Shown piece after piece: positions 23,768 to 39,322 of a stretch of 64,000 nt of DNA. This stretch comes from Ruminiclostridium herbifermentans (GTDB lineage Bacteria; Bacillota; Clostridia; Acetivibrionales; DSM-1351). The notes beneath the pieces were generated by a model, which was not told where the DNA came from, searched no databases, and saw only the letters and a list, made by a program, of their open reading frames with translations. The stretch covers positions 2,844,501 through 2,908,500 of the forward strand of contig NZ_CP061336.1 of the NCBI RefSeq assembly GCF_005473905.2, given 5' to 3'. Made by a program: the position numbers and the translations under genes. Within the stretch, counting starts at the first letter, position 1. Each line of letters begins with the position of its first letter.

Positions 23768-23782
23768 TAGCTCCTCCTATAA

Positions 23783-23902
23783 TAACGCTTCCGAAGTTAG
23801 CTGTCGGGCTCGGGCAATAGGATCGCCCTACTATTTTCATAGATTCACCCCAAATATTTTGGTTCCTCCGTACCCGTATAACGGGATTCAGCTATTTTTA
23901 TG
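23783..23902 (-). promoter_or_regulatory. c-di-AMP riboswitch (ydaO/yuaA class)
   Basis: The minus strand reads GCTGAATCCC..GGGTACGGAGGAACC..TTGGGGTGAAT..GTAGGGCG..CCCGAGCCCGACAGCTAAC and ends TTCGGAAGC at 23787. These are the conserved blocks of the ydaO-yuaA aptamer in the right order and spacing. This class usually turns expression off when c-di-AMP binds. The aptamer ends only about 9 bases before the GGAGGAGCT ribosome site, and I see no separate terminator. Confidence 0.95.
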
Positions 23903-23912
23903 CTACAAAGCT

Positions 23913-38773: not shown

Positions 38774-38943
38774 TAAGCATTTTTGCTTATTTTTACAATA
38801 TTATACTCAAGCTTCGCAGGATAATATACTGATTATAGTCTAATATATCAGGTGTGGTATGCAAGTTTGGTTAGAAATATTTGCATTAGTTAATTCATAG
38901 CGTGCTAGAGCAAAAAATAATATATATCAACAGTAAACTGCTT

Positions 38944-39187
38944 AAATAGTACGACGTAGCAATATATATCTATTGCTTGCTCACGAAATTGATGCTGAAA
39001 TAATTACGGTGAAGAACAAGCACTTCCGCCGATCGTATAACACTCGATAACCTGTCTCGGGTTAATACTCACAGCTACATCCTTGTAGCTGTGTCGGCTT
39101 CAATACTTGTTCTTCACCTATTATTTCTAGCATCAATTTCTAACCGGGCATCGCAAGTAGATATATATTACACTCGCGTACTATTTA
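38944..39187. other. Long imperfect inverted repeat, candidate structured RNA or MITE
   Basis: Two arms of about 76-80 bases (38944-39020 and 39106-39187) pair over blocks of 10, 12, 12, 8 and 13 bases: AAATAGTACG, AATATATATCTA, GAAATTGATGCT, GAAATAAT and GGTGAAGAACAAG. Inside, a five-base GCCGA/TCGGC stem closes a region with three hairpins: ATCG/CGAT, AACC/GGTT, and a 10-bp CACAGCTACA/TGTAGCTGTG with a TCCT loop. It lies in a gene-free stretch. I know no family that fits. Confidence 0.85.
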
Positions 39188-39322
39188 TTTTATTTCAATA
39201 AAGCATCGGTATACAGAAAATGTTGTTTTAGCAGCCCCTTCAGCAAAAGTACTTATCATTTCTAACCCAACTTTAGGATGAAAAATAGTGCCGTATACCG
39301 CAAAAACACCCAAACAAATCAT
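39185..39322 (-). CDS. Doubtful 45-codon reading frame or gene remnant
   Basis: The frame MICLGVFAVYGTIFHPKVGL... ends exactly at the outer edge of the long inverted repeat. It has balanced codon use but no ribosome site before the ATG, and I recognise no family. It may be the tail of a broken gene. A CGGTATAC/GTATACCG inverted repeat lies within it (39206-39213 and 39293-39300). Confidence 0.2.
   Translation of the reverse strand: MICLGVFAVYGTIFHPKVGLEMISTFAEGAAKTTFSVYRCFIEIK

Follow-up and report, generated by a model that had tools for sequence, protein, structure and literature searches.

The long inverted repeat at positions 38944–39187 of the window, the 64,000-nt stretch of Ruminiclostridium herbifermentans DNA analysed here, is very probably a TwoAYGGAY RNA (RF01731) carried by a MITE, in a worn copy, and represents neither a new RNA class nor a mere MITE. 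The fuller reading, in which the worn MITE carries a divergent TwoAYGGAY RNA with predicted CsrA binding, is in our opinion the probable one. A preliminary description of the same DNA had offered a non-coding RNA or a MITE as alternatives. Each half of that proposal is supported, but it is not a matter of either/or, as the feature is both at once. The further suggestion of novelty was wrong for the RNA: its siblings are TwoAYGGAY RNAs, although the window copy itself goes undetected by the Rfam model.

The plus strand from 38930 to 39200 folds at −110.2 kcal/mol, its 200 dinucleotide-shuffled versions at −47.3 ± 4.4 and none of them as low (0/200; z −14.5), and the minus strand of 38944–39187, folded as RNA, yielded −113.7 (z −14.4). 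The feature had been described as far more structured than a terminator, and folding of both strands, as had been proposed, shows it to be far beyond chance, with a z of about −14 whichever strand is used. The basal stem is formed by a 5′ arm at 38944–38970 and a 3′ arm at 39160–39186 (both plus strand, read from the fold). The apical junction with additional hairpins is likewise present, including the perfect 10-bp hairpin at about 39070–39093. We assign the structured core (38944–39187) to the minus strand as the RNA-like strand on the basis of the folds, the strand preference of the copies and the Rfam matches of siblings, which are on the minus strand. Within it, the conserved apex (39008–39118, minus) scored 102.6 bits on the minus and 24 bits on the plus strand with our covariance model R1, a match by construction because the window copy is among the 20 sequences of R1. 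Apical hairpin 2 (39070–39093, minus) has a 10-bp stem and the loop region CUACAAGGAUGUAG with the loop AAGGAU, a predicted CsrA-type site by the motif given in the accessible text of PMC7652899. Apical hairpin 1 (39043–39059, minus; CGAGACAGGUUAUCGAG) is worn and has the loop AGGUUA, showing GGU where 32 of the 45 source-genome copies read have GGA. Thus, one of two GGA sites is kept in the window copy.

The coordinates 38944–39187 given in the preliminary description hold for the palindrome, but this is only the core of the feature, as homology runs to about 38899 and 39238. The whole MITE-like element (38899–39238, no strand assigned) measures about 340 bp in the window; its limits are derived from the homology of 41 source-genome copies and are accurate to a few bases, the ends being degenerate. 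The left terminal inverted repeat (38899–38918, plus) is badly degenerate and was placed by its aligned position, the family consensus being AGGGGCTGTTGCAAAACAAG, while the right one (39222–39238, minus) is well kept and reads GTTGTTTTAGCAGCCCC on the plus strand. No open reading frame of at least 60 aa overlaps 38899–39238. Between 38500 and 39500 neither an own promoter (8 promoter-like sites vs 6.8 by chance) nor a terminator was recognised. The neighbouring genes are, as described before, a MarR-family gene and a DUF362 gene. Elsewhere in the window, a c-di-AMP riboswitch (RF00379) is located at 23772–23903 on the minus strand (97.1 bits).

The element is highly repeated in the source genome (4.82 Mb, one contig), where the best 40 of 143 candidates are all long matches, mostly 81–91% identical to the window copy. 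In 41 copies aligned together with their flanks, homology extends beyond 38944–39187 on both sides up to an inverted repeat with the consensus GGGGCTGTTGCAAAAC. Two conserved-block patterns were found at 50 and 21 places of this genome. In the source-genome stretches that were fetched, 61 distinct places match the family consensus over more than 180 nt and 65 match R1, the latter number being 82 matches minus 17 opposite-strand matches of the same place. The same stretches hold 31 pairs of terminal inverted repeats (overlaps and alternative ends of one copy included), all with at most 7 mismatches and spaced by 50 to 365 bp. Near ends-only elements of 50 bp (L085) and 55 bp (L084) exist, as well as an 85-bp element with a poorer right end (L094), and one end is lost in some source-genome copies. 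A pooled test for a common target duplication among the source-genome copies gave no clear signal. The source genome also holds a second repeat family (GTTGATTCTAC...), found flanking several of the element's insertions and often at one same position (L052 2371–2471, L042, L036, L083, L086 and others). Its left part holds TACTGGTACGCGAGTACAACTT, which resembles the basal arm of related cores, and this family may be a diverged subfamily of the element.

Copies visible to blastn are present in 3 of 10 other genomes of the genus, with 67–78% identity over the matched parts. When a conserved pattern was compared with 84,980 species genomes, a collection from which the source-genome records are possibly absent, 44 stretches were obtained, all of them from Ruminiclostridium cellobioparum. 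In the copies of this species the fold of rod and apex is unchanged, the stems are rewritten and the loops are kept. Many of them have other ends, TTAACCYGTTGTGCTAATT, next to what look like 9-bp duplications of a target resembling TTAAWTTAA; by eye, those of L137 and L151 are exact (TTAAATTAA / TTAATTTAA). These target duplications are suggestive, the pooled test in R. cellobioparum being confounded by the preference for TTAAWTTAA targets. At one orthologous site of two R. cellobioparum genomes different subfamilies of the element are found (L106 and L116) between flanks that are 92–99% identical, a swap by replacement, conversion or repeated insertion. In L192, L204 and L205 the bases that adjoin the GGGGCTGTCGCAAAAC-like ends on their outer side look like an inverted and not a direct repeat (AATAAG...CTTATT, AAAT...ATTT, read by eye), perhaps due to insertion into palindromic targets.

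Clear target duplications were resolved in a distant relative. In G093, whose family within the class is a different one, elements of 284–285 bp with ends like CTGYAATTCG...CGAATYRCAG enclose seven RF01731 copies; five of the seven are bordered by exact duplications of 8–10 bp (shifted from the end by one base in L256), and the remaining two by repeats matching at 7/8 and 6/8 positions. Together with the scattered copies and terminal inverted repeats of the source genome, this bears out the MITE half of the preliminary description. In G407, ends like GATTCGGGTGTCAAAAGG are paired in three of seven copies (2, 6 and 7 of the 36 positions mismatched), and the other four have no passing pair. The terminal repeats around the same RNA differ between R. 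cellobioparum, G093 and G407; thus, one RNA is carried between different sets of ends. At E ≤ 1, 48 of 60 relatives gave short matches, which were discarded as mostly chance, and the element is without match among plasmids, phages and viral contigs.

The element would be non-autonomous, and a putative transposase acting in trans would recognise the terminal repeats and spread the copies. A search for one transposase family in three genomes and a scan of the reading frames between ends in the fetched stretches revealed no autonomous partner. Four end pairs of these stretches enclose an ORF of at least 200 aa, the first 80 residues of which do not look like a transposase. The only PF13610 (IS240-type transposase) matches in the source genome are three with in-frame stops at G000:C1 4135887–4163705. 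The ends of these remnants (GGTTCTGTTGCAAAAAC-like) are similar but not identical to those of the element. IS6/IS240 was rejected as the mobiliser, as the source genome has only these three broken remnants with non-identical ends and two R. cellobioparum genomes have none. A match to a known insertion-sequence end had been named as one finding that would speak against the preliminary description; with the comparison directed at IS240-type ends, similarity in three remnants was found, but not identity.

The assignment to TwoAYGGAY is based on siblings and relatives of the window copy. The window copy itself has no RF01731 match in Rfam, either at the gathering threshold or at E ≤ 10, and its match to mir-7131 (E 0.004, 25.9 bits vs a gathering threshold of 74) was put down to chance, the hairpin being long and AT-rich. 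Its sibling L185 from the source genome reaches 52.8 bits with RF01731 (gathering threshold 43). In this genome, five RF01731 matches at E ≤ 0.01, three of them over the cut-off, were found among the best 7 of 85 candidates. Among 12 stretches scanned, four are at or above the gathering threshold (L196, L195, L206, L193). A further 12 stretches, scanned at E ≤ 1, gave ten RF01731 matches, of which three pass the threshold (L185, L115 with 45.6 bits, L187 with 43.4 bits) and seven are below it; L112, L106 and L192 are slightly under the threshold, and L098 and L186 have no match at this E-value. All five stretches that had been chosen because RF01731 matched there are at or above the threshold. 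R1 and RF01731 agree in place and strand in L193, L195, L196, L206, L185, L115 and L187. Some TwoAYGGAY copies of the source genome that the family consensus missed were found by R1 (L036 9023–9180, L262 and L261, with 55.3, 42.8 and 43.0 bits against RF01731), and judged on their folds they look like other subfamilies.

Of the 58 genomes of the order, 14 have R1 matches. At least 67 matches each were counted in the source genome, G001 and G008, and 29, 19, 18, 14, 13, 12 and 2 in other genomes of the genus, with none in G003; four genomes of other families have 35, 2, 1 and 1 (opposite-strand doubles not removed from any of these counts). Across the class, RF01731 is found in 37 of 391 genomes, in 26 of them over the cut-off. 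As 8 of the 37 positive genomes contain at least seven candidates, RF01731 is often a multi-copy RNA.

The construction of a covariance model and its search against related genomes, as suggested in the preliminary description, provided strong support for a conserved RNA. In an alignment of 20 diverse sequences (A1), 95.0% of the cells are paired vs 76.8% after shuffling, and 24 of 33 pairs show double changes. The covariation score of 0.558 compares with 0.212 for shuffled alignments and drops to at most 0.095 when the partners are slid by 1–3 columns. Similar values were obtained for 36 sequences from 14 genomes (A3, fitted to the R1 model), with 93.6% paired vs 68.7% shuffled, 29 of 33 pairs double-changed and a score of 0.629.

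The minus strand gives the better RNA fold in 97 of 101 copies (42/46 from the source genome and 55/55 others). On this strand, exactly two GGA hairpin loops are present in 52 of the 55 non-source copies and one in the other three, while the plus strand has no such loop in 54 and one in a single copy. The source-genome copies are less uniform on the minus strand, 15 of 46 having two GGA loops, 18 one and 13 none. Furthermore, G-U pairs outnumber A-C mismatches on the minus strand across subfamilies (39 vs 15 in A1, 41 vs 21 in A3). The excess is smaller within three subfamilies summed, with G-U 287 vs A-C 209 on the minus strand (plus: G-T 209, A-C 287). The sequences are related, and these strand tests are therefore not independent.

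Hairpins of IS200/IS605 elements or of attC sites matter as DNA for transposition, and the long palindrome might likewise work in transposition as single-stranded or cruciform DNA and not as RNA. The fold of 38944–39187 is equally extreme with DNA parameters (z −13.6 for the plus and −13.2 for the minus strand). In addition, most one-sided changes within subfamilies break pairs and the G-U to A-C relation is nearer to parity there, as expected of copies drifting after insertion. Nevertheless, the excess of G-U over A-C on the minus strand across species and the loops, which follow an RNA–protein motif, argue for RNA. Similar cores are found inside different terminal repeats, and the near ends-only elements (L085, L084, L094) suggest that movement may not require the core, provided that they did not shrink once inserted. 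We consider a role of the palindrome as DNA unlikely. It is quite unlikely that the copies act in cis on their neighbours as a portable 3′-UTR or leader, placing the gene next to them under CsrA control, stabilising its mRNA or terminating its transcription. Both genes flanking the window copy have the minus strand as their sense strand. Within the source genome and R. cellobioparum, 30 copies lie between convergent genes vs 11 between divergent ones (genes from a simple ORF caller), so that the copies avoid divergent promoters. Between genes of the same direction, however, the copies have no orientation preference (sense to antisense 20 to 23 in the source genome and 15 to 7 in R. cellobioparum), which speaks against a strong cis role.

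A decaying MITE without function, whose structure is left over from its origin, would be in line with the 81–91% identity of most source-genome copies to the window copy and with the loss of an end or a GGA loop in some. The core divergence between the two R. cellobioparum genomes (57/3221 = 1.8%; 13 of 16 orthologous pairs, alignment windows below 75% identity masked) is close to that of other non-coding DNA of the same genome pair (62/2812 = 2.2%) and not clearly lower. The three pairs left out are L116/L106 (different elements at the site), L142/L167 (cut off) and L147/L150 (poor synteny). The core is slower, though, than its own outer arms (47/1511 = 3.1%) and 4-fold sites (360/5028 = 7.2%), coding DNA being at 2.6%. 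Paired sites changed at 28/2422 and unpaired ones at 25/799 positions, a biased comparison, since one sequence of the two decided which sites count as paired. These rates make constraint on the copies now in place possible without proving it. For the lineages that spread, constraint follows clearly from the covariation: every helix covaries between subfamilies and the loops change little. A MITE without function is very unlikely in our judgement.

The loops of the RNA mostly switch between CAGGANG and CANGGANG, and the two apical hairpins mostly show CA(N)GGA(N)G. Both GGA loops are present in 26 of the 36 A3 sequences, the loop of hairpin 1 in 35 and that of hairpin 2 in 27, and the 9 of 36 second loops without GGA mostly read CACGAUG. 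As far as the accessible text of PMC7652899 goes, CsrB repeats read CAGGA(U/A/C)G and lie in hairpin loops or elsewhere in single-stranded RNA, SELEX yielded RUACARGGAUGU, RsmE binds ANGGAN hexaloops, and one dimer bridges sites 10–63 nt apart. By a hand count the two loops of the copy L136 are 30 nt apart, a spacing that a single CsrA dimer could span. Two csrA genes are present in the source genome (G000:C1 162408–162563 and 164863–165021), adjoined by fliW and flagellin genes. Among the 50 csrA-positive genomes of the 58 of the order, only the source genome and G051 have two csrA matches. The gene is found in 13 of 14 genomes with the RNA; this fits the requirement but discriminates little, as it is also found in 37 of 44 genomes without an R1 match. 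We see the chances that the RNA binds CsrA as about evenly balanced, and those of a role as a titrating sponge as lower.

In a minus-strand transcript the long rod would lift the two CA(N)GGA(N)G hairpins, and many copies could titrate CsrA as a dispersed sponge or tag the transcripts containing them. A MITE with a CsrA-binding RNA body would be the most economical mechanism, and either the host or the element might benefit. We counted against it that the window copy is invisible to RF01731 and has lost one GGA, and that one transposase family searched and the fetched stretches scanned yielded no transposase. That TwoAYGGAY as a whole consists of transposon-borne CsrA decoys, carried repeatedly by elements of Clostridia with lineage-specific ends and tuning or subverting the CsrA–FliW–flagellin circuit through copy number, is a doubtful though conceivable extension. 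A location of TwoAYGGAY inside high-copy elements that have terminal repeats and target duplications would go some way towards explaining why its copies are scattered, and testable systems follow, e.g. R. cellobioparum with at least 67 R1 matches in each of two genomes. If CsrA binding is true, a mobile element would be acting by way of a regulator of its host, and CsrA would have an RNA antagonist outside Gammaproteobacteria.

Bacterial MITEs and palindromic repeats such as bcr1, ERIC and BOX are short, non-coding, high-copy, palindromic and intergenic. The element is like them in all these respects, but its body belongs to a conserved family of structured RNAs whose loops are of the CsrA type. 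No link between CsrA and a MITE was found among the publications that surfaced, as far as their accessible text goes, the Rfam 12 article treating both, apart from each other. A precedent for a dispersed, self-spreading protein sponge was likewise not found in the accessible parts of the literature searched. The nearest idea concerns the IS200 5′tnpA sRNA of Salmonella, a structured mobile-element RNA for which the accessible text names titration of CsrA, among other proteins, as worth investigating (PMC12594629). Unlike our element, this RNA lies within a transposase transcript and is not the body of a non-coding element; it has three GGA by the authors' count, and its CsrA binding is hypothetical (PMC12594629). 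CsrB/CsrC and RsmX/Y/Z share the hairpin loops CAGGA(U/A/C)G or ANGGAN as CsrA/RsmE sites, according to the same accessible text as above (PMC7652899). They consist of one gene with many sites, whereas the element has two sites per copy in many dispersed mobile copies and occurs in Clostridia. Their Rfam families matched neither the window copy nor any of the 24 sibling and relative stretches scanned with Rfam.

TwoAYGGAY was first reported by Weinberg et al. 2010, whose accessible text lists it as "probably" an RNA and considers a cis-regulatory role improbable (PMC2864571), and was still termed relatively unexplored in 2025 in the accessible text of PMC11661157. It was proposed as a CsrA-binding RNA of Clostridia already in 2014, as stated in the accessible text of PMC4333381. 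A description of TwoAYGGAY as the body of transposon-like elements was not found in print, in a search that mostly covered the accessible text of non-subscription journals. The element shares with TwoAYGGAY the rod, the junction and the two apical hairpins, mostly with GGA loops, on the same strand, and some siblings of the window copy, one of them from the source genome, reach the gathering threshold. It differs in that its loops are often CAGGANG rather than AYGGAY, that the window copy is invisible to the Rfam model, and that here tens of copies per genome reside within elements bounded by terminal inverted repeats.
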